A stretch of DNA of 64,000 nucleotides. Origin: Polyangiaceae bacterium. Its GTDB lineage: Bacteria; Myxococcota_A; Polyangia; Polyangiales; Polyangiaceae. Below the pieces are notes generated by a model that saw nothing but the letters and a program-made list of their open reading frames with translations, did not search any database and had not been told where the DNA came from. Of this stretch, positions 2,666 through 13,650 are shown one piece after another. The stretch spans positions 1 to 64,000 of the forward strand of contig JAKLKA010000012.1 of NCBI GenBank assembly GCA_023150915.1, in the 5' to 3' direction. The position numbers and the translations under genes were made by a program. Numbering within the stretch: the stretch's first letter is position 1; every line of letters begins with the position of its first letter.

Positions 2666-2865
2666 GCGGGATGTATGTGCAAGGGCGAGTCCATGACCCG
2701 ACGGCGTGATTTCGTGCGGTTAGGCCGCGCGCGCGGAGGCAGTGCCGACTCCGCCTGCCAACCGGCGGTTGGCGGGGGTGCGGAGTGGGGCTCGCCATCG
2801 GCTGTCCCGCAAAAGTGTCCGCGCGAGTCCATTTTTTGCTAAAAACGGGAGTCGTGTATGCCCGA

Positions 2866-4035
2866 ATGATCCAGCCGCCGCACCAACAGAGCTTCTTCTT
2901 GTTCGGCCCGCGTGGAACGGGCAAGTCGAGCTGGGTCCGCGCGCATTACCCCGACGCAGCGTACGTCGATCTCCTCGATGACGAGACCTATCGGCGGCTC
3001 CTCGCGCGCCCCTCGACGCTGACCGAGCTCCTCGAGCCACCCCGCCGAGGCGTGCCCCGCGGGTCCAGGCGTGGTCAGAGAGGCCAGGTGGTCGTGATCG
3101 ACGAGGTCCAGAAGGTGCCAGCGCTTCTGGACGAGGTACACCGGCAGATCGAGGCGCGCGGCACTCAGTTCGTGCTCACGGGGTCGAGCGCGCGCAAGCT
3201 TCGCAAGCAGGGGACGAATCTCCTTGCCGGCCGCGCCTTCACGTACTCCCTGTTTCCGCTGACGGCCCGCGAGTTGGGCGACGACTTCGACCTTGCCCGT
3301 GCGCTTCGGTTCGGCACCTTGCCCATGGCTGTCACCTCCCGAGCGCCCGCCCGTTACCTCTCGTCCTACGCCAGGACTTACCTCAGGGAGGAAGTCGAGC
3401 AGGAGGGCCTGACGCGACAGATCGGCAGCTTCGCGCGATTCCTGGAGACTGCGAGCTTCTCGCAGGCGGCATGCCTGTCGGTGGCCCAAGTCGCCACTGA
3501 CGCCCAGGTTCATCGCAAGGTGGTCGAGGACTACTTCGGTATCCTGCGCGACCTGCTTCTATCCCACGAGCTGCCGGTGTTCTCGCGTCGCGCAAAGCGC
3601 GAGCTCATGACCAAGCGGAAGTTCTACTTCTTCGACGTGGGGCTCTACCGGACGCTTCGGCCTCGAGGCCCACTGGACAGCGAAGCGGAGCTGAATGGTC
3701 CCGCATTCGAGACGCTCTGTCTCCAAGAGCTGATGGCGTTGAACCATTACCTGGAAGCGGGGTTCGACTTCTTTCACTGGCGCACGCGAAAGCACGAGGA
3801 GGTCGATCTGGTCCTCTACGGCGAGAAGGGGCTCTTGGCGTTCGAGCTCAAGGCCGGCAGCCGGCTGCGCGAAGCGGACTTCAGGGCGCTGGAGCTCTTC
3901 GGTGGGGACTACCCGGAAGCACGCCTCATCCTGGTCTACACGGGGACTCGAGCGGAGCGGCGCAAAGGTATCGAGCTCATCCCCGCCGATCGCTTCTTCG
4001 CCACGGCGGGCGACATTCTGCTCGGAGACGTCTGA
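2866..4035 (+). CDS. AAA ATPase with C-terminal DUF4143 domain
   Basis: 389 residues from the ATG at 2866; the track start at 2785 adds an unlikely 27-residue leader, and an in-frame GTG lies at 2854. The protein has Walker A (FGPRGTGKS), Walker B (VVVIDEVQKVP), a sensor-like LTGSSARKLR segment, and a C-terminal DUF4143 region with a nuclease-like pattern (EEVDLVLYG then LLAFELKAG). Such proteins are widespread single-gene ATPases of unknown physiological role, frequently in variable parts of genomes. It stands alone on the plus strand between two minus-strand secreted-protein clusters, consistent with an acquired gene. No partner gene is adjacent. Confidence 0.85.
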   Translation: MIQPPHQQSFFLFGPRGTGKSSWVRAHYPDAAYVDLLDDETYRRLLARPSTLTELLEPPRRGVPRGSRRGQRGQVVVIDEVQKVPALLDEVHRQIEARGTQFVLTGSSARKLRKQGTNLLAGRAFTYSLFPLTARELGDDFDLARALRFGTLPMAVTSRAPARYLSSYARTYLREEVEQEGLTRQIGSFARFLETASFSQAACLSVAQVATDAQVHRKVVEDYFGILRDLLLSHELPVFSRRAKRELMTKRKFYFFDVGLYRTLRPRGPLDSEAELNGPAFETLCLQELMALNHYLEAGFDFFHWRTRKHEEVDLVLYGEKGLLAFELKAGSRLREADFRALELFGGDYPEARLILVYTGTRAERRKGIELIPADRFFATAGDILLGDV

Positions 4036-4123: not shown

Positions 4124-5173
4124 TCACTTCCCGCCGCACGCACGCGCCGGCATCAATCCCGTGTCACTGACGCCCCCTGCTTGGACGACGAGCGTCGTCT
4201 CGCGCACGCACAGTCGCGGAGCGTGCCGATGGGCTCGCACAACGTACTTTCCGGGTGGCACGTCGAAGAATCCGCCCTTCCCGGAGTGAGTCGTCACGTT
4301 TCCGGAGACCGCCTCGAAGACGCTGTAGAGACGCTGCACGCGGCGGCATCCGGGATCTGGCAGCGCGCCTGGTGACACACGGCCGGCTCGGAGCAGGGTC
4401 CGCCGAACGGGTAGAGTCGCTTGTCCGTCACCGACGAGCTGAAGTCGAAGCACACCGAGCGATCCGGAACGGCAGGCACGCACAGCCCCTTCCCTGGATC
4501 CTCCGCGGCGCGGCAGCGAAGGCCAAACCCGCACAGCGCAACGCGGCCACCCACCTCGCCACACGCCGAACCCTCGCCTTGGACCAGGAAGCGTTCACAG
4601 ACCTTAGGCCCTGGACTGCAGACCAACTCGACAGGCCAGAGCTGGCACTCGTCGCCACCGGGCACGCACGGCTGGCCCTCCGCGCGGCGCTCCGCGCACG
4701 CGCCCTCGCGACACGCGAGGTGCGGTAGGCACGGTCGATCGGGACCCGAAAGCGATGATCTGACCGTCGCGCGCAGCAGCCCCCAGCATCGCGCGTGGTG
4801 TGACGAGCGACTCTACACGTCTCCAGTGATTGGTGCGCGGGTCGTACACCTCGACGTCGCCGATCTCCTGCAGCGCGGTCGCACCGTACGCCCCGCCAAT
4901 GCAGTAGATCCGCCCATCGTGGCCTTTGACCAAAGCATGACCCTGCCGCGGTTGGTTGAGACTGCCCGGGCTCGTGCAGGCGCTGGCGAAACAGCCCACG
5001 CCGGTGGGGCAGACGCGCCCACACTGCCCGCAGTTTCCGATGTCGGTCGTCGTGTCGACGCACTCGCCGCCGCAGCGCGTCCCTCCGCTGGGGCACGGTT
5101 GGTCCTCCGCGGGAGCAGAGTTGCTGCACGCCCACGGGAGGCAGGTCACCGCGAACACCCCCCACTTCGTCAT
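4124..5173 (-). pseudogene. Collapsed paralogous copy of the kelch / Cys-rich / large-lipoprotein cassette
   Basis: Three gene fragments lie in the same order and strand as the intact genes at 8931-10031, 7948-8934 and 6158-7951. From 5173 an N-terminal kelch lipoprotein is readable (MTKWGVFAVTCLPWACS, GNCGQCGRVCPTGVGCF, then QIIAFGS); it breaks near 4742. Directly after, in another frame, the C-terminal half of the Cys-rich protein follows (DRPCLPHLAC, ECQLWPVELVC, YPFGGPC). Near 4330 a further frame change leads into the last domain of the large protein (GKGGFFDVPPGKYVVRAHR, ending ARACGGK). The fragment start lies two bases past the stop of the TPR/PEGA gene, so it was once the next part of the same operon. 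The fused ORFs are unlikely to be functional. Confidence 0.8.
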
Positions 5174-5174
5174 C

Positions 5175-6161
5175 TCAGAAACTCCCCCGAACCCCCGCAC
5201 CCCTCGGCCCCAGCGACAGCCCCACGCTTGGGCGCTCAGGCGCGCTGAGAACCAGATACGTGCCGAGCCCCAGCGTAGCGATCCCGAAACCGAAGCTCGC
5301 GGTGGACCAGTCGGCGAACGTCGTCGCCTCCCGCGAGAGCTCCGACCCGCGCACGGTGCAGCCGTGCTTGCAGAGCGCCTCGCTCTCGTCCTTCTTCGAG
5401 AGCGCGCGCACGCCGAGGTAGGTGCCGGCGCCGACTCCGATCACGCCGACACCGCCGACGATGAAGCCCCAGGTGCGCTGAGCATCGCTGTGCGGGCGGT
5501 TGCGCGGCGGACGGTCTGGCACCGGTGCGACCACCGGAGCAACTATCACGCTGCGGGGCGGCTCTGCGCGCGGTTCGGCCTCGAGCCGCGGCACGACCAA
5601 CGTTTGCTTGTCAGACTCCGGCTTGACCTCCACGGTCGCGCGCCAGGTGCGATAGCCAGGCGCCGCAACCACCACCTCGTGCGGCCCGCCATCGACGGGC
5701 ATCGCGGAGCCCCAAGCCGCGCGCGCGACCTCGGAGCCGTCGCGCGTCACGCTCATCCCCGCGAGCGCCAGCCCTGGCGGCACCTCGATGATCAGGCGCG
5801 AGAGCCGCGGCTCCACGGAGGCGAGGTGCTCGGTGGCAATGGTGATGCGATCGTCGCGATCGTCGCGACGCGCCATCGCGAGCGCGTCGTTGAAGGCGCT
5901 GTAGGCGCTGGCGAGCTTGCCGATGGCTTCGTAGCACAGGCCCAGGTTGAGGACCGTGCCGCCGCCGGGATCGAGGCGGTGGCTCTCGGCGAGCTTCGGG
6001 CAGGCTTCGTGGGCCTTGCCGGCCGCCATCAGCTCCCTGCCCTGGTTGAAGAGCTCGGTGGCGAGGGCGCTGTCTTCGGGAGTGGGAGCCGCTGCAGCCG
6101 AAACGGTTGCGCCGAGGATGCCGGACAGGAGCAGCACTGCGCGCATCGCGTTGGGGTTCAC
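5175..6161 (-). CDS. TPR/PEGA-type membrane-associated protein
   Basis: 328 residues from a GTG at 6161 preceded by a strong GGAGGT at good spacing; the GTG overlaps the upstream stop as GTGA. (ATG 6146 is the alternative.) A signal peptide (LLLSGILGATVSAAAA) is followed by a tetratricopeptide-like region (FNQGRELMAAGKAHEACPK, LGLCYEAIGKLASAY), a PEGA-like beta-sandwich (PGLALAGMSVTRDG, VDGGPHEVVVAAPGY), a Pro/Arg linker, and two hydrophobic helices (FIVGGVGVIGVGAG and FGIATLGLGTYLVL). This architecture is very common in myxobacteria; no catalytic function is implied. It closes the intact part of the lipoprotein operon, and the decayed copy of that operon's first genes follows immediately. 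Confidence 0.8.
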   Translation of the reverse strand: MNPNAMRAVLLLSGILGATVSAAAAPTPEDSALATELFNQGRELMAAGKAHEACPKLAESHRLDPGGGTVLNLGLCYEAIGKLASAYSAFNDALAMARRDDRDDRITIATEHLASVEPRLSRLIIEVPPGLALAGMSVTRDGSEVARAAWGSAMPVDGGPHEVVVAAPGYRTWRATVEVKPESDKQTLVVPRLEAEPRAEPPRSVIVAPVVAPVPDRPPRNRPHSDAQRTWGFIVGGVGVIGVGAGTYLGVRALSKKDESEALCKHGCTVRGSELSREATTFADWSTASFGFGIATLGLGTYLVLSAPERPSVGLSLGPRGAGVRGSF

Positions 6162-7951
6162 GATCCACCTCCGCCCGGGGCACCGTCCGAGCACAATCCG
6201 AGCGTGCCCACGGCAGGCTGGAACGCCAGGCACGCCGCGCCTCCGCAGTCGGAGTCAGTGCAGCAGAATTTCCGGCAGAGCCCGAGGTCGAAGTTTGGCG
6301 CGGTGTCGCAGGTGAGCCCGCCCGCGCAGTAAGTGTTCTTCGCGGGAAGGCACAATAGACCGGCGGTTTGGGTATTCCCGTCGGCAAAGCACGCGAACCC
6401 AGCACCGTCGAAGTCGCAGCTCTCCGTGGAGCCACATCCCAGATTCGTCACCGGGTTGCACATCGCGAGGTAAGTTGGGTCGGCGATGCACCCGGCGGGG
6501 AGCGGTGCGGTGGTGCACTCCGCTGCGAAGTCCGCGCAGCAGTCGCCGTACGTGGCGCAGGCCCCATCGCACCAGCATTCACCGGGAAAGGTGGGCGGTC
6601 CGAGGCACCGGTTGGCGCAGCTCCCAGGCAGGCTTCGCGGCTTCTCGTCCAGCGGCAGGCAGCCCCCAGCGGACAGGGTCACCTGGGTCTCGGTTCCAGC
6701 TCGCACGACGATCTCGCGTCGGGCCACGCACTCGCCGGTTTCCCTGCGCGTGGCCACGAGCGTGTGCTTGCCGGGTGAGACGTTGAGGAAACCGCCGTTC
6801 GCCGGAAAGCCGGTCGCGGTCGCATCGAGCTCGCCGATCAGGCCGTAGTACCCGGCCGCCCCCCCGTCATGCGGGTCCAGCTCGACGCTCACGCCGGGCA
6901 TGAAGAAACCGCGGCAGTCCAGGACTTCGTAGAAGACATGCCCCTTCTGTTCCAAGACCGGCACCTTGTGCGCCATGACAGCTCTGAAGTCGGCCACGGA
7001 GTAGCCCGCCGCCCCCAAGTAGGTTGTTCGCTCTCGCTTGCTGGGGCCCCCCGCGGCGGGTCGTGGCCGTAGGTAGTGAATCGTCGGTGCCTCTCCTTCG
7101 AGCCACAAGTAGCCCTTGCTGCCGTGCTGAACCCCCAATCGCACGATGCCTAGCTCGTCAGTCGTGCCTTCCGCCATCGGCTGGAGACAGGCGACGTCGC
7201 CGGGTTCGCAGAGCCGCACAATGGCCCCCGGGTGCGGGCGCGTTCCGCCGGTCAGCACGATCACTCGCGCCTCGACCTCGACGCCCAAGCCGTGAATCGG
7301 AGCCGGCCACACCGAGTGATGTGAACAGCTCAGGTCCGGCGGCAGGTACCCGCATTCGCCAGGGCACTTCTGGAGCAGGCACTCGGTGAAGCGGAGGGCC
7401 GACATGACACCGCTCGAATGAGCACGCTCGCAGTCGAGGTGGCATGCGGTGTCGATCGAACTGCAGTTCTGCTTGCAATACAGCAGTGCGAGGCACCCGG
7501 CGCTCTCGCCGCAGGCCGTGGCAGCGGTGCAGCACTCGCTGTTGCCACACTTCGCGCACTCGGCCCTCCAATAAGTGAACCCCCCGCACTCGACGCCGCA
7601 CTCGCTGGCACAGGAACGAGCGCGGCAGCTCGACAGCGCAGCGTACTCGCCGCGGAAAGCGCCCTCGTGCTCCTGCCGGCAGTCCGAGAACCCGGCCTCG
7701 GTACTGCTCTGAACGCAGGCGTCGATGGCAGCGCACTCCGAGTGGCCCCGACAGGCGATCGCCGCGTCGCAGCAAGCGCCACGCAAGCAGGCCGCGCACC
7801 CGGGAGCTGCAGTCAGATCCTCGCAGTGTCCTCGCTCTTCGACCCCGCCGAGCTGCCGACAGCTCCAGAGCGGTGTGCTGGCGACGCCGAGCAAGATCAC
7901 GGTAACGATCCGACGCCGAGCGCGGCTGGGGATGCGGCTACGCTGTCTCAT
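6158..7951 (-). CDS. Large Cys-rich lipoprotein with beta-sandwich and somatomedin-B-like modules
   Basis: 597 residues from ATG 7951, which overlaps the previous stop as ATGA; the track's extra 71 residues are a shadow. The lipobox region reads LLGVASTPLWSC. The first third is rich in paired Cys. Two carboxypeptidase-regulatory-like beta-sandwich segments follow (VEARVIVLTGG; GGFLNVSPGKHTLVA). A segment matching the eight-Cys spacing of somatomedin B comes next (SCANRCLGPP, ECWCDGACATYGDCC). The C-terminal Cys module (CAGGLTCDT, RKFCCTDSDCGGAAC) recurs in the lipoprotein at 12757. Likely outer surface, perhaps adhesive; no enzyme motif is visible. Confidence 0.75.
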   Translation of the reverse strand: MRQRSRIPSRARRRIVTVILLGVASTPLWSCRQLGGVEERGHCEDLTAAPGCAACLRGACCDAAIACRGHSECAAIDACVQSSTEAGFSDCRQEHEGAFRGEYAALSSCRARSCASECGVECGGFTYWRAECAKCGNSECCTAATACGESAGCLALLYCKQNCSSIDTACHLDCERAHSSGVMSALRFTECLLQKCPGECGYLPPDLSCSHHSVWPAPIHGLGVEVEARVIVLTGGTRPHPGAIVRLCEPGDVACLQPMAEGTTDELGIVRLGVQHGSKGYLWLEGEAPTIHYLRPRPAAGGPSKRERTTYLGAAGYSVADFRAVMAHKVPVLEQKGHVFYEVLDCRGFFMPGVSVELDPHDGGAAGYYGLIGELDATATGFPANGGFLNVSPGKHTLVATRRETGECVARREIVVRAGTETQVTLSAGGCLPLDEKPRSLPGSCANRCLGPPTFPGECWCDGACATYGDCCADFAAECTTAPLPAGCIADPTYLAMCNPVTNLGCGSTESCDFDGAGFACFADGNTQTAGLLCLPAKNTYCAGGLTCDTAPNFDLGLCRKFCCTDSDCGGAACLAFQPAVGTLGLCSDGAPGGGGS

Positions 7952-8934
7952 TGGAACGGCGCTACCTCGCACATGGCGACGTCGAGAACCCCGCAACGGC
8001 CGGTGGTCGCGCACAAGGCCGGCGCGAGGCAGGGCCCGCCGAACGGGAAACGCTTGGGCAGAGCCTGCGGCTCTTGAACGCACCCGTAGCGGTCGGGCTT
8101 GGCGGCGACGCACACACCCCGGCGCGGTGTGTCGACCACTTCGCAGACCAAGCCGGGGGCACACAGCGTGACCGGACCTTGGTCGACCTCACCGCAGGCC
8201 TCGCCGGCGCCGGCCGAAGCGTAGCGCTCGCACCGGCCCGTGCCCGGGTTGCACACGAGCTGTTCGGGCCAGAGCTCGCAGCCGTCCGCCTGATCGCACG
8301 GCCCTCCCTCTTTCGCCCGCGGCACGCACTCGTGCGCGACGCACGCGAGCCACGGGAGGCAGGGTTTGTCCGCATCACACGCGCCCGTGGAGATGTAGGC
8401 GACGCACTTCCCCCCTGCGCTGCAGGCACGACCCGACGCGCAGTCGCCGTCTTCGAAGCAAAGGTCGCCCAACTCGGCGGGCGTCCGGCACGCACCGCAC
8501 GGACGGACGTGCGGGCTGCAGTGGCCTGTCTCGCACTGGCTCCCGAGCAGGCAGAGCGAACCTTGCTGGAGATGCCCCTTCTTGGTGCATGCCGCGGGTG
8601 CGTCGCGCATCCGCTCCCAGCGCAGCCATCGGGTACAGCGTGCGTCCAGATCCCCTTCCGAGAGCACCTGCCCGCAAGCACGGACATCGTCCGGAGTGAG
8701 CGTGCTGCCGGGGCCGAACCGCGAGCTCTCGCACTGGAGCGTCTGGCGCTCGACGCAGGTGTCCACGGCCTGGTACTCGCTGGCGAACTCCGCGGAGAGA
8801 CAAGACCGCTTCGACTCGCACCAGGACAGGGCAAAGGCCGCGCAGCTCGCGCGTACCGGGTCCACGGCCTCTGGCGCGGCGGAGGTGGAGCACGCGAGCA
8901 CGAAGGCCACCGCGCAGACGGCGGAGCCCCTCAC
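7948..8934 (-). CDS. Cys-rich lipoprotein (Dickkopf-like cysteine spacing)
   Basis: 328 residues when started at the GTG at 8934, which overlaps the kelch stop as GTGA and gives a compact leader (MRGSAVCAVAFVLAC). The protein carries many short C-x-G-x-C modules (CLLGSQCETGHCSPH, CFEDGDCASGRAC, CEVVDTPRRGVC) typical of secreted myxobacterial disulfide-rich proteins. The order kelch, this gene, large lipoprotein is conserved in the decayed copy at 4124-5173, indicating that the three act together. No catalytic residues recognised; function unknown. Confidence 0.75.
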   Translation of the reverse strand: MRGSAVCAVAFVLACSTSAAPEAVDPVRASCAAFALSWCESKRSCLSAEFASEYQAVDTCVERQTLQCESSRFGPGSTLTPDDVRACGQVLSEGDLDARCTRWLRWERMRDAPAACTKKGHLQQGSLCLLGSQCETGHCSPHVRPCGACRTPAELGDLCFEDGDCASGRACSAGGKCVAYISTGACDADKPCLPWLACVAHECVPRAKEGGPCDQADGCELWPEQLVCNPGTGRCERYASAGAGEACGEVDQGPVTLCAPGLVCEVVDTPRRGVCVAAKPDRYGCVQEPQALPKRFPFGGPCLAPALCATTGRCGVLDVAMCEVAPFQ

Positions 8935-10031
8935 AGCGCCCACCGGTCCGTCGCGGGGTCGTAGACCAGCGTCGAGTCCACTGCGAAGGGGAACACGTAT
9001 CCTCCCACCAGGTGGATGCGGCCGTCCGGCGCGACGGCAGCGGCGAAGTCCCTGCGCGGCTCGGGCATCACGGCGACGTCCTTCCAGAGCTTCTGCTTCG
9101 AGTCGTAAGCCTCGACGACCGCGCTCTCCATGCCGCTGACGTCAGTTCCGCCGAAGTAGAAGATGCGGCCGTCGGAAGCGAGCACCGCAGCTCCGCCGCA
9201 GTGGGGGTGGTTCATGTCGGGCGGGTCGCTCCACGCCTTCGTCTCGGGGTCGTACGCGTTCACGGTGCTCACCGCGTCGAACTCCAGGTTGTTGCAACCG
9301 CCGAGGAGATAGATGCGTGCGTCCGCTCCGCGCACGGCGACGGCACCCCAGCGGGGCTGCACGTGCGTCGGTGGCGCCGCGGGCTCGGTCGTCCACCGAT
9401 CGCCGTCGAACACCTCCACTGTTGGCACGACGGCTGGAGCCGGGTTTCCCTTGCTGTACCCCCAGAACGCGTAGATTCTCTCGTCGGCTCCGACCGCTAC
9501 GGCCGCCCGAGCGCGCTTCGTCTCGAGCTTGGCGGAGGGAGACCAGGTGCCCGCGCTCGGCTCCAAGATCTCGACGGTGTCCAGGGCTGGCCCTTCGATG
9601 CTCCACGCTTCGCCACCGATGGCGAGCAGTGCTCCCCGCACGTTGACCGCAGTGAACCAGGTCCGCGACGGGTCGAGGAGCGATGGCAAGAGCAGCCAGC
9701 GGTTGCTCTCGGGCGCGAAGCACTCCACGGACCCCGTCGCGGGCACAGCCTGATCGCCACCGACAGCGCAAACTCGCCCGTCCGGCCCGACCACCACGCC
9801 ATGACCAGCCCGTGGCGCCCGCATCGGCCGCGGCGCACGGCACGCCCCACCGAAGCACCCGGCGCCAACGCCGCAAACGCGGCCGCACGCGCCGCAGTGA
9901 CCCCAGTCGACTCGCAGATCGACGCACGCTTCCCCGCATCTGTCCTGCCCCGCCAGGCACTGCCCCGCGGTCTCGGCGCAGCCCAGAGAGACGAGCACCA
10001 CGACCCCGCAAACAGCGCCGACCCTCCTCAC
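8931..10031 (-). CDS. Kelch-repeat lipoprotein
   Basis: 366 residues from GTG 10031, which gives a clean lipoprotein leader (MRRVGAVCGVVVLVSLGC); the track's ATG at 10076 adds 15 residues. A short Cys module follows (CGEACVDLRVDWGHCGACG, then VCGVGAGCF) and then about six kelch blades with the usual pattern (GHGVVVGPDGRVCAVGG, AVRGADARIYLLGG, IHLVGGYVFPF). Kelch proteins fold as beta-propellers that bind ligands. It is first gene of the operon running down to the decayed copy; the divergent lipoprotein at 10191 shares the upstream region, which holds a CRP-like palindrome. Confidence 0.82.
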   Translation of the reverse strand: MRRVGAVCGVVVLVSLGCAETAGQCLAGQDRCGEACVDLRVDWGHCGACGRVCGVGAGCFGGACRAPRPMRAPRAGHGVVVGPDGRVCAVGGDQAVPATGSVECFAPESNRWLLLPSLLDPSRTWFTAVNVRGALLAIGGEAWSIEGPALDTVEILEPSAGTWSPSAKLETKRARAAVAVGADERIYAFWGYSKGNPAPAVVPTVEVFDGDRWTTEPAAPPTHVQPRWGAVAVRGADARIYLLGGCNNLEFDAVSTVNAYDPETKAWSDPPDMNHPHCGGAAVLASDGRIFYFGGTDVSGMESAVVEAYDSKQKLWKDVAVMPEPRRDFAAAVAPDGRIHLVGGYVFPFAVDSTLVYDPATDRWAL

Positions 10032-10110
10032 AGGGCCCAGGATACCCGCGTGCCTCGGGGGGCCAATAGGCATCATCGGCTCTGCCGAGGTTGGAAACCG
10101 GTCGAGCCAG

Positions 10111-10190: not shown

Positions 10191-10724
10191 ATGACCAAGA
10201 ACATCTCGAATCTCTTGCTCGCGGCCGCACCGGCACTCCTCTTCTGCCTTGGGTGCACTGGCGCCGTCGAGCGCGACGACCGCGGGCCCGGGACCGTGAG
10301 CGGGCCTCCGGCCGCCACCGCCGAGCCGAGCGCCACGCCCGCGCCGTCGCATCGCGGCAGGGGCACCGGGCCACAGCTCGGGCGTGGGTCGCTCGTACCC
10401 ACCGGCGGCGAGGACGATCCCGCCACGCGCGAGTCGATCTGCGTGAGCGTCGGCGCCGACGGCAACATCGATCGGATCGACGAGGTGTCCTGCACCTTGG
10501 CGACGGAAATGCACGAGTGCGCGCCCAACGACTGCCCGTGGATCCGCTGCGGGGATTGCCTGATCCATGTCGACCGCCCGAGCGACTACCTCGACGACCC
10601 GACCGGGCGCAGCGGGCCGCCGTGGCTCCTGAACGCGACCTGGGGCGCCGGGACGTGCACCGCGTTCGCGGGAACCTATGAAGTGTACGCGGACGCGACC
10701 TGCCGGGTGCGCTCGGCGATGTAA
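10191..10724 (+). CDS. Small hypothetical lipoprotein
   Basis: 177 residues. AGGAG lies upstream of the ATG. Leader LLAAAPALLFCLGC fits a lipobox. The mature part starts with a low-complexity Pro/Ala/Thr stretch and then a Cys-containing domain (CTLATEMHECAPNDCPWIRC) with no family I recognise. Divergent from the kelch operon; its stop is eight bases from the convergent kinase gene. Confidence 0.7.
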   Translation: MTKNISNLLLAAAPALLFCLGCTGAVERDDRGPGTVSGPPAATAEPSATPAPSHRGRGTGPQLGRGSLVPTGGEDDPATRESICVSVGADGNIDRIDEVSCTLATEMHECAPNDCPWIRCGDCLIHVDRPSDYLDDPTGRSGPPWLLNATWGAGTCTAFAGTYEVYADATCRVRSAM

Positions 10725-10732
10725 CGTCAAGC

Positions 10733-12001
10733 TCACTTCTGCTCGCTCAACGGATCGCGCTTGGGCCTCGCGCTCGCGCTCGGCTTCGGCGCTGGCGCGC
10801 GAGTGATCCTCGCTGGCTTGGGTAGCGGCGCGGAGGCCATCGCGGGCGCGGAGGCCGTCGGCGAGGCGGCCGGCGCGGCGACGGGCGTGGAGGGAGCTGG
10901 TTCGGGCGCAACGGTTGGCATCGGGACCGCGCTTACAGCCGCAGGTGCCGACGGGCGGGTGAGCTGCCACGCGATCAGTGCAACCCCAAGCACCGCGCCT
11001 GCACCCAACGCGATCGGCAATCGGCTGCGGTCGGACGAGTCGTGCACCGCGGCAAGCGCTGCGATGAGCTCCTCGGCGGTCGCGAACCGCTGCGCGGGGT
11101 CCTTGGCGAGGCAGCGCAGCACGGTCCGCTCGAGCGCGCGCGGGACGCCCTCGAGCCGCGGAGGCGCGTCGCGATCCACCGCGATGAGGATGTCCATTGC
11201 GCTGTCCCCGGTGAAAGGACGCCGCCCGGAGAGCATCTCGTACAGGACCACGCCGAGGGAGAACAGGTCGCTCCGCGCGTCGACCTGTTTCCCCTTCGCC
11301 TGCTCCGGTGACATGTAGCTGGGCGTGCCGAGGATGCGCCCCTCGACGGTGGACAGCACCGTGACGGACTCGAGCGCCGGCCCGCGCGTTCCAACGGGCT
11401 TAGCGAGCCCGAAGTCCAGAACCTTCACGCCGCCGTCGACGTCGACCATGACATTGTCGGGCTTGAGGTCCCGGTGAACGATCCCAGCGGCGTGCGCCTT
11501 CGTGAGGGCGCTAGCCACCTCGCGCACGATGCGCACCGACTCGACCCGAGGCAGCAGAGCTCGCTCCATCAACTGCCGCACGGTCCGCCCCGCGACGTGC
11601 TCCATGGCGATGTAGACCGCACCTTCTGTTTCCCCCGCTTCGTACACGGCGGCGATGCTGGGGTGGGTGACGGCTGACGCCGCCTGCGCCTCACGCAGCA
11701 AGCGCTTCCGTCGTTCGGGATCGGCGGCAACGCTCGCCGGCAGGACCTTGAGCGCGACGCGGCGCCCGAGCCGCGTGTCCATGGCCGCGTAAACGATGCC
11801 CATGCCCCCGCGCCCGAGCTCCTTCTCGATCTCGAACTGCCCGAGCCTTTGGCCTTCGCGATCGGGTTCCTCCGTCGGCGGGCGCACTTCGTCGACGTGC
11901 GCGGCTGCACGCAGGAAGGCCTCGTCGCTGTCCGTCTCGACCTGCCCCGAGCTCAGCTCGAGATCGGAGTCGTCGCTCTCGACGAGGGCGCGCTTGCTCA
12001 C
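10733..12001 (-). CDS. Transmembrane Ser/Thr protein kinase (Pkn type)
   Basis: 422 residues. The GTG start overlaps the sigma factor's stop as GTGA. The kinase domain spans about residues 55-320 with the Gly loop LGRGGMGIVY, catalytic HRDLKPDNV, DFGLAKP and the PEQ segment (GTPSYMSPEQ), so all core residues are present. A single membrane helix follows (IALGAGAVLGVALIAW) and then a Pro/Ala-rich tail ending in basic residues. The acidic N-terminal 50 residues are unassigned. Coupling to a sigma factor gene suggests that the kinase and the sigma factor work in one signalling chain, a recurrent arrangement in myxobacteria. Confidence 0.9.
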   Translation of the reverse strand: MSKRALVESDDSDLELSSGQVETDSDEAFLRAAAHVDEVRPPTEEPDREGQRLGQFEIEKELGRGGMGIVYAAMDTRLGRRVALKVLPASVAADPERRKRLLREAQAASAVTHPSIAAVYEAGETEGAVYIAMEHVAGRTVRQLMERALLPRVESVRIVREVASALTKAHAAGIVHRDLKPDNVMVDVDGGVKVLDFGLAKPVGTRGPALESVTVLSTVEGRILGTPSYMSPEQAKGKQVDARSDLFSLGVVLYEMLSGRRPFTGDSAMDILIAVDRDAPPRLEGVPRALERTVLRCLAKDPAQRFATAEELIAALAAVHDSSDRSRLPIALGAGAVLGVALIAWQLTRPSAPAAVSAVPMPTVAPEPAPSTPVAAPAASPTASAPAMASAPLPKPARITRAPAPKPSASARPKRDPLSEQK

Positions 12002-12636
12002 GGCTCGGCGTCCCTCGCCCGGACCAGCCCCTCCCGCCGCGCTAGCTCGAGCAGCTTCTCCTTCGCGAGCTGGAAGCGCTTGCGCAACCGGGCCGCCTCT
12101 CGGCGCAGTGAAGCGTCGTCTAGCGGCTCCTCTCCCTCGTGGAGCACTTGCGCAAGCTCGTTCCAGGCGAGGCCCTTATCGATGCGCAGGATGAGCAACT
12201 CTTGGTCCTCGCGCGGGAGCGTCTCGCGCAGCGCCGCCGCCCTGGTCTTGTTCTCCGTCTTCAGGTGCTCGAGGGTGGCGCTGCGGATCTGAGCCGCAAC
12301 GACCGAGAGCTCCGAGCCTTGCGGCAACTGCGGCTGCCGGCGCACGCGCCGCCGCGTGTCGCGCTGGTACACCAGCGCTGCCCGGCGAGTCACCGCATAC
12401 GCCCATGTGCGGAACGACGACTGCCAGGCAAACCTCGGAAGGCCACGCCAGATGCGCTCACTGGCCTCGGAGAACACCTCGGACGCCATGGTCTCGTCGC
12501 GGTGGAACGCCATCAGAAACCCGAACAGCTCCGGCCCGTACCCGCGCAGGGCGATGGTCGCCGCTCCGGCCAGGTCCCCCACGTCGAAGCGCTGGCGGAT
12601 CTCCCGCTCCAGCTCGCTTGGCTCCGACCCGCCCAT
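11998..12636 (-). CDS. Sigma-70 family (ECF-like) RNA polymerase sigma factor
   Basis: 212 residues. Region 2 is recognisable (LFGFLMAFHRDETMASEVFSE, RFAWQSSFRTWAYAVTRRAA) and region 4 lies at LRETLPREDQELLILRIDKG. A 25-residue insertion near the region 4 helix (LHEGEEPLDDASLRREAARL) makes it longer than a minimal ECF factor. It is the first gene of a two-gene operon with the kinase. An extended -10 sequence lies just upstream. Confidence 0.85.
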   Translation of the reverse strand: MGGSEPSELEREIRQRFDVGDLAGAATIALRGYGPELFGFLMAFHRDETMASEVFSEASERIWRGLPRFAWQSSFRTWAYAVTRRAALVYQRDTRRRVRRQPQLPQGSELSVVAAQIRSATLEHLKTENKTRAAALRETLPREDQELLILRIDKGLAWNELAQVLHEGEEPLDDASLRREAARLRKRFQLAKEKLLELARREGLVRARDAEP

Positions 12637-12756: not shown

Positions 12757-13650
12757 ATGCCCGAAGTCAGCACCGTTCCCTACCAGGCCGTCGCGACCGC
12801 CCTGGCGCTCGCGGTCATCGCGTGCGGGGAGTCCACTCCGACTGACAACCCCGCCCCCGACGCTTCCGACGCTTCGACGGGCGTGGCAGGGCCGGACTCC
12901 GGCGCCGAAGCGGGCAGTGACGCGGGCCCGGACGCAGTGTCGGACGCGGCGGACGCTGGCCCAGACGCAATGTCGGACGCGGCGGACGCCGGAACCACCG
13001 AGAGTGGGGCCTGCGCCGACGCTTCGCCCAACTGCTACCAGAGCTGCTCGGAGATCCTCGACGACGTGCACAGCGGCGCGTGCACGAACGCCGGAAACGT
13101 CTGCCCAACGATCGGGCTGGGGAAGGATCTGCTGTACGATTTGCAAGCCTGTTGCTCGAAGAAGTGCGCCGGTGCCTGTCAGGGATGCCCGTTCTCGTCG
13201 CACCAGTTCTCGACGGCGTGCACGCAGTGCATCGGCTCCAGCTGTGTGCAAGAGACCGCGAACTGCACGGCCAACCAGTACGTGGAGTGCAACCCCGTGA
13301 GTGGCTCGCCTTGCGCGCTGCTGGCCGGCGCTACGTGCGACGTCGAATGGAAGGCGGGGGAGTTCGTTTGCTGGGGTGGGTCGAACCCCCAAGCTGAGTG
13401 CGCGGCCTGCGACTACGGCTGGCCAAAGGGCGGCACGTTCTGCGCAGGTGGGCTCACTTGCGTGGATGCGACCGGTCAGCCCACGCAGGGAGCGGGGACC
13501 TGCCGCCGCTACTGCTGCACCGACGCCGACTGCGGCGGCGCAGCGTGCCAGAAGGGCAAGTTCCCGTGGAAGCCCGAGGTCGGCCTGTGCACCGCGAGCT
13601 GCACCGGGCCGAAGCCGGCGCCGTCAGGCGGGAGTTGTGCCGCACCGTAG
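12757..13650 (+). CDS. Cys-rich lipoprotein with Asp/Ala linker
   Basis: 297 residues from ATG 12757 (GAGGAG seven bases upstream); the 503-residue track ORF begins far upstream inside the antisense sigma gene. Lipobox ALAVIAC. An Asp/Ala/Gly linker with an imperfect direct repeat (DAVSDAADAGPDAMSDAAD) precedes a Cys-rich domain (NCYQSCSEIL, CCSKKCAGACQGCPF) and a C-terminal module shared with the large lipoprotein at 6158 (CAGGLTCVD, CRRYCCTDADCGGAAC). Surface role, function unknown. Confidence 0.8.
   Translation: MPEVSTVPYQAVATALALAVIACGESTPTDNPAPDASDASTGVAGPDSGAEAGSDAGPDAVSDAADAGPDAMSDAADAGTTESGACADASPNCYQSCSEILDDVHSGACTNAGNVCPTIGLGKDLLYDLQACCSKKCAGACQGCPFSSHQFSTACTQCIGSSCVQETANCTANQYVECNPVSGSPCALLAGATCDVEWKAGEFVCWGGSNPQAECAACDYGWPKGGTFCAGGLTCVDATGQPTQGAGTCRRYCCTDADCGGAACQKGKFPWKPEVGLCTASCTGPKPAPSGGSCAAP

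Follow-up and report, generated by a model that had tools for sequence, protein, structure and literature searches.

Results

A collapsed gene set beside an intact lipoprotein cassette

The window, by which we mean the whole 64,000-nucleotide stretch of Polyangiaceae DNA analysed, carries an intact cassette of kelch, Cys-rich and large lipoprotein genes (the A cassette). A remnant of the same three genes lies at 4124-5173. Percentages in the list refer to G001, a genome of the same genus that holds two related loci, A and B.

4124..4348, minus strand: remnant of the large lipoprotein, second beta-sandwich (CnaB/transthyretin-like) domain (HMM 1.1e-7; fold model of intact homologue)
4318..4336: deletion joint 2; the end of Cys with its stop, the start of large and the greater part of large are gone, about 1.05-1.12 kb
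4297..4740, minus strand: remnant of the Cys-rich protein, C-terminus (HMM 5.8e-40; 16/16 invariant Cys present)
4740..4746: deletion joint 1; kelch C-terminal and Cys N-terminal parts gone, about 1.24-1.28 kb
4736..5173, minus strand: remnant of the kelch lipoprotein, N-terminus, 146 codons (tblastn, HMM, Pfam Kelch_1 and Stig1, alignment with three intact copies)
5174..5177, minus strand: TPR/PEGA stop TGA, one base, kelch ATG
5175..6233, minus strand: TPR/PEGA protein gene, directly upstream of the remnant (Pfam PEGA, TPR_2; G001 homologues 65-68%)
6158..7951, minus strand: large lipoprotein of the A cassette, intact (short large fused to a somatomedin-B (SMB) and a C-terminal Cys domain)
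7948..8943, minus strand: Cys-rich lipoprotein of the A cassette, intact
8931..10076, minus strand: kelch lipoprotein of the A cassette, intact
10191..10724, plus strand: small lipoprotein (67% to G001 locus A, 39% to locus B)
10733..12001, minus strand: Ser/Thr kinase (Pfam Pkinase)
11998..12636, minus strand: ECF-type sigma factor (Sigma70_r2, sigma70-ECF)

The gene order is thus sigma factor, kinase, small lipoprotein, A cassette, TPR/PEGA and remnant, and the A-cassette kelch gene does not lie directly downstream of TPR/PEGA. Lipobox-like N-termini were recognised by eye in the kelch, Cys-rich and large proteins.

Three further observations concern the surroundings. A Cys-rich gene at 12757-13647 (plus strand) adjoins the sigma factor and is 52% identical to L031:8164-9042, which in G001 locus B lies between the small gene and TPR/PEGA, so the locus has been rearranged between the species. 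An AAA_14/DUF4143 ATPase gene at 2785-4035 (plus strand) is convergent to the remnant; G001 locus B has an SMB gene in that place, and synteny with locus B breaks at 2785-4035. Segments 73-505 and 1332-1953 are 72-83% alike, with 108-bp repeat units and DxDxDG-rich (thrombospondin type 3-like) segments, and probably represent a pair of paralogous secreted proteins.

The remnant consists of three colinear pieces joined at two deletions

We traced the cassette proteins by tblastn and by profile searches over all 1029 stop-to-stop frames of the window, using profiles made from the intact kelch, Cys-rich and large proteins. For each profile the best match was the intact cassette, followed by the remnant (kelch, 7.1e-38; Cys, 5.8e-40; large, 1.1e-7). 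The remnant pieces are colinear on the minus strand in the order kelch, Cys-rich, large, with gaps of a few bases at most, as the earlier note had read them. The large piece is weak when taken alone (about 30% identity over about 70 aa); each of the three nevertheless has significant homology to an intact gene, and their order and homology are far beyond chance resemblance, which we rejected as an explanation.

The kelch piece is the N-terminal third of the protein and comprises a signal peptide with the lipobox LPWAC, a STIG1-like Cys domain and the first kelch blades. Its homology stops at about 4745 (...IIAFGS), and the frame stays open to a stop at 4604, giving 189 aa that end in a 46-codon out-of-frame tail. 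The Cys piece corresponds to profile positions 190-332 of 335, with about 136 native codons between 4740 and about 4333; homology begins at DRPCLPHLAC (about 4740-4746) and finishes at ...DAAACS (about 4320-4335). Homology to the large protein runs from about 4330 (around YSVFEAV) to a stop at 4126-4124. These breaks agree with the joints near 4742 and 4330 that had been proposed earlier. The three pieces had also been placed in three different frames, which we correct here: the frames are 0/1/0, the kelch and large pieces agreeing (coordinates 5173 and 4348 are both 1 mod 3) and only the Cys piece differing.

Every gene of the remnant lacks a large part and the frames are broken. Measured against the G001 B cassette the deletions amount to 1280 and 1049 bp, and against the window's own A cassette to 1241 and 1115 bp. 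Both cross a gene boundary. The shortfall of about 1.28 and 1.05 kb relative to the intact G001 operon supports two boundary-spanning deletions, and the earlier claim of decay by two internal deletions holds. At joint 2 an 8-bp repeat, CAGCGTCT, occurs at 4336-4329 and 4325-4318. The lost Cys and large parts turned up at no other place in the 98.8% complete genome: in a genome-wide search of the assembly's contigs, Cys matches were confined to the A cassette and the remnant, and the large_B query matched the A cassette only.

Intact cassettes in related genomes

The two G001 loci, A (L030) and B (L031), lie 1.23 Mb apart. Locus B comprises the sigma factor, kinase, small protein, an extra Cys-rich gene, TPR/PEGA, kelch, Cys and large, all intact. 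Locus A has the sigma factor, kinase, small protein and TPR/PEGA, followed by an inverted cassette. The kelch-Cys-large set is thus intact in three copies, with constant order and neighbouring genes overlapping or abutting by a few bases, whereas its place relative to TPR/PEGA varies: in the window the set precedes TPR/PEGA, at G001 A it follows in inverted orientation and at G001 B it follows directly. These findings bear out the view that the cassette is an evolutionary unit.

In the A cassettes the large protein includes the SMB and C-terminal Cys part by fusion, whereas G001 B encodes this part as a separate convergent gene; the window's 6158-6660 part and the separate gene L031:13593-14228 thus record a gene fusion (or fission) that took place in this genus. 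The remnant-type domain is internal in the intact large protein of the window, where the somatomedin-B domain and then a further Cys-rich domain follow it. The description of the remnant's last piece as the final domain of the large protein therefore applies to the short B-type protein of G001 and not to the window's intact one.

A third genome of the genus, G002, lacks Cys homologues altogether. The distant relative G043 likewise has a short large protein (L071), and a Cys-large pair occurs there without kelch. Kelch plus Cys appear to be an addition within this genus. A profile search of genome contigs with the Cys alignment gave no match, and one of contigs with the sigma-factor alignment gave distant relatives only, in which the cassette was absent. 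A literature search on this gene set returned nothing.

The remnant groups with cassette B of the related species

We compared the remnant (R), G001 B (B1), the window's A cassette (A0) and G001 A (A1) in a quartet test over the 350 columns retained by the remnant. The only arrangement not rejected was (R,B1 / A0,A1), the alternatives having AU p = 0.0004-0.0005. When outgroups were added, A0 and A1 were kept apart from the remnant with support of 95, and a rooted Cys tree did not join R and B1 exclusively, at a weak node (61). The remnant and B1 are far apart, at about 1.5 substitutions per site versus about 0.7 for the pair of A cassettes, so that B1 is at most a putative strict orthologue. 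At such a distance synonymous sites are expected to be saturated. Two further characters are of B type. The terminus of the remnant's large piece matches the short large_B (...AAGKCP, then the stop), before the SMB part of large_A, and the TGA-N-start coupling between TPR/PEGA and kelch, with a G-rich ribosome-binding-like stretch, resembles that of G001 locus B. Given the quartet, the short-form large end and this junction, the remnant is best read as the positional counterpart of G001 cassette B and not as a copy of its neighbour.

How A and B came to lie side by side in the window is a separate matter, which concerns origin and not decay. An old tandem duplication, prior to the species split, is possible. 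It is somewhat short of an even chance that both cassettes already sat together in the common ancestor, as in the window, that G001 duplicated this locus and kept one cassette per copy, and that the window's lineage retained A and lost B. The sigma and kinase trees lean towards A1+B1 (UFBoot 89 and 86), a pairing expected if the locus duplicated once the species had separated, the cassettes being much older than that. However, AU tests on both genes still allow the window and locus A as sisters, the TPR tree leans towards window+B1 with A1+B1 nearly excluded (AU p 0.02), and the small lipoprotein resembles its counterpart at G001 locus A much more than that at locus B. Sigma factor and kinase therefore lean towards a locus duplication in the G001 lineage and TPR/PEGA towards the opposite.

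The collapse appears recent

The remaining 350 codons of the remnant contain no stop, which under neutral change would be improbable (5%) past about 0.08 substitutions per site. None of the 25 invariant Cys is lost (9/9 present in the kelch piece, 16/16 in the Cys piece). Conserved sites in these two pieces are retained about as often as in the intact B1, and those of the large piece slightly less. The stop-free codons and conserved Cys argue for a collapse that is recent relative to the remnant's branch length of about 0.7-0.8 substitutions per site.

Preservation could also mean that the truncated 189-aa kelch lipoprotein, with its lipobox and STIG1-like Cys domain, continues to be produced and retains some residual role. 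The gene still has its start codon, a Shine-Dalgarno-like stretch and the coupling to TPR/PEGA, and its nine conserved Cys are all present. We consider such a role unlikely, since the protein would carry the out-of-frame tail and an incomplete beta-propeller, and the downstream pieces, which are untranslatable as secreted proteins, are comparably well preserved. Preservation thus reflects recency.

Three other accounts of the remnant are improbable. According to the earlier note, it arose as a tandem duplicate of the adjacent cassette (6158-10076), placed after TPR/PEGA and then decayed. The genes and their order are the same and the intact cassette lies 1 kb away, but a recent duplication is very unlikely. 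The DNA alignment with the adjacent cassette that had been proposed as a check produced no more than brief stretches of similarity (36 bp at 86%, 43 bp at 79%), and the comparison was therefore moved to proteins. In kelch and Cys the remnant is 40-49% identical to the A cassettes, whereas the A cassettes of the two species share 51-57% over whole proteins. Grouping the remnant with the adjacent cassette is rejected (R+A0, AU p = 0.0004), and the TPR/PEGA junction is of the G001 locus B type.

A chimeric or collapsed contig, with an intact cassette in the true genome, is improbable to a similar degree: the assembly is a draft in 295 contigs, yet the joints have no long repeats able to cause a mis-join, the missing parts are on no other contig and two independent joins would be required.

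A functional fused, recoded or frameshifted gene is the least probable account and was rejected for 4124-5173; all pieces have coding-like GC3 (78-82% in the correct frames) without internal stops, but stops separate the kelch and large pieces in their common frame, the kelch propeller is cut after its first blades, the Cys and large pieces lack a start and signal peptide, and no intact fused gene of this arrangement, which the earlier note had named as the finding that would speak against decay by deletion, occurs in any genome examined.

Large lipoproteins near kinase and TPR/PEGA genes

AlphaFold modelling of the domain pair of an intact large homologue (18 sequences) gave two beta-sandwiches with a pLDDT of 83, while the whole large protein with 3 sequences reached a pLDDT of 39. 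The remnant retains the second of the two modelled sandwiches.

Of nine large homologues outside the cassette, five have a TPR/PEGA gene at a distance of up to about 6 kb (7% expected, p 0.0002) and eight a kinase gene (37% expected, p 0.002). The expectations are approximate, since they were derived from gene densities in a single genome and the loci came from the best matches. These neighbourhoods suggest a wider conserved module of kinase, TPR/PEGA and large lipoprotein, to which the kelch and Cys genes are additions.

Large homologues recurrently neighbouring TPR/PEGA and Ser/Thr kinase genes were seen across L132, L134, L135, L137, L130, L133, L136 and L071 (other genomes of the order, and G001 C2).

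Discussion

We conclude that 4124-5173 is very probably a recently collapsed B-type operon shaped by two deletions rather than a recent copy of the A cassette next to it. The homology, order and joints of the pieces, the absence of the missing parts from the assembly, the quartet topology and the TPR-kelch junction were observed directly. The course of events was very probably as follows. The split of the A lineage from that of B and the remnant predates the divergence of the two species' A cassettes. A B-type copy of the TPR/PEGA-kelch-Cys-large operon then collapsed recently, when two deletions, one per gene boundary, took about 2.3 of 3.4 kb and brought the N-terminus of kelch, the C-terminus of the Cys-rich protein and the last large-protein domain side by side. 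An intact operon, with the same order and TPR/PEGA-kelch junction, persists in the sister species G001 at locus B. The remnant itself is presumably non-functional. A truncated 189-aa kelch lipoprotein may be translated after TPR/PEGA, and the function would be covered by the surviving A cassette. Judged from domains and gene context, the intact unit is most likely a surface or periplasmic lipoprotein assembly under the control of the linked ECF sigma factor and Ser/Thr kinase.

More tentatively, and with less than an even chance of being right, the remnant may testify to rapid turnover within a surface-signalling module of this order, as yet undescribed. Such a module would have as its core a Ser/Thr kinase, in many cases accompanied by an ECF sigma factor, together with TPR/PEGA and a double beta-sandwich lipoprotein, while Cys-rich and kelch lipoproteins would be added, duplicated, inverted, SMB-fused and lost between species. 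Whatever its wider setting, the locus shows that the kelch, Cys-rich and large lipoprotein genes move and vanish as a block, and it yields a loss that can be located between two congeneric species. It also directs attention to the conserved neighbourhood of kinase, TPR/PEGA and large lipoprotein, which has no assigned function.

The closest counterpart of the remnant is G001 locus B (L031:9057-13588), which is alike in gene order, in the TGA-N-start coupling, in a short large protein without SMB and in B-type residues such as CHQ-ARCQIPDAAACS / CFQ-NRCQIPDTAACS. It differs in being complete, in having a convergent SMB gene downstream, in lying 1.23 Mb from an A cassette and in a protein identity of 30-47%. 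The A cassettes (window 6158-10076; G001 L030:7967-11936) share the remnant's three genes, their order and their overlapping or abutting ends, but belong to the A clade and have the large protein fused to SMB and the C-terminal Cys domain.

Among known families, the N-terminus of the intact kelch protein matches the MXAN_6577-like Cys-rich family (NF041328, 1.4e-10; NCBIfam score 41 versus a cut-off of 100), and Stig1 matches both intact and remnant kelch N-termini. Unlike MXAN_6577-like and STIG1-like proteins, the kelch lipoproteins join the Cys-rich domain to kelch repeats. The domain pair of the large protein resembles the tandem beta-sandwiches of CnaB and carboxypeptidase-regulatory proteins (SpaA pilin, 5j4m; metallocarboxypeptidase D, 3mn8), with low whole-length TM-scores (about 0.2-0.5) that limit this to a single-domain fold resemblance; no Pfam family was assigned to the beta-sandwich query.

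Bacterial operon pseudogenes formed by deletion ordinarily have truncated gene ends joined out of frame and intact homologues in relatives. A decayed operon is in itself an ordinary outcome of this common process of gene loss. The remnant is the same in kind and an unusually well documented example, differing in how clear its joints and its intact counterpart are.
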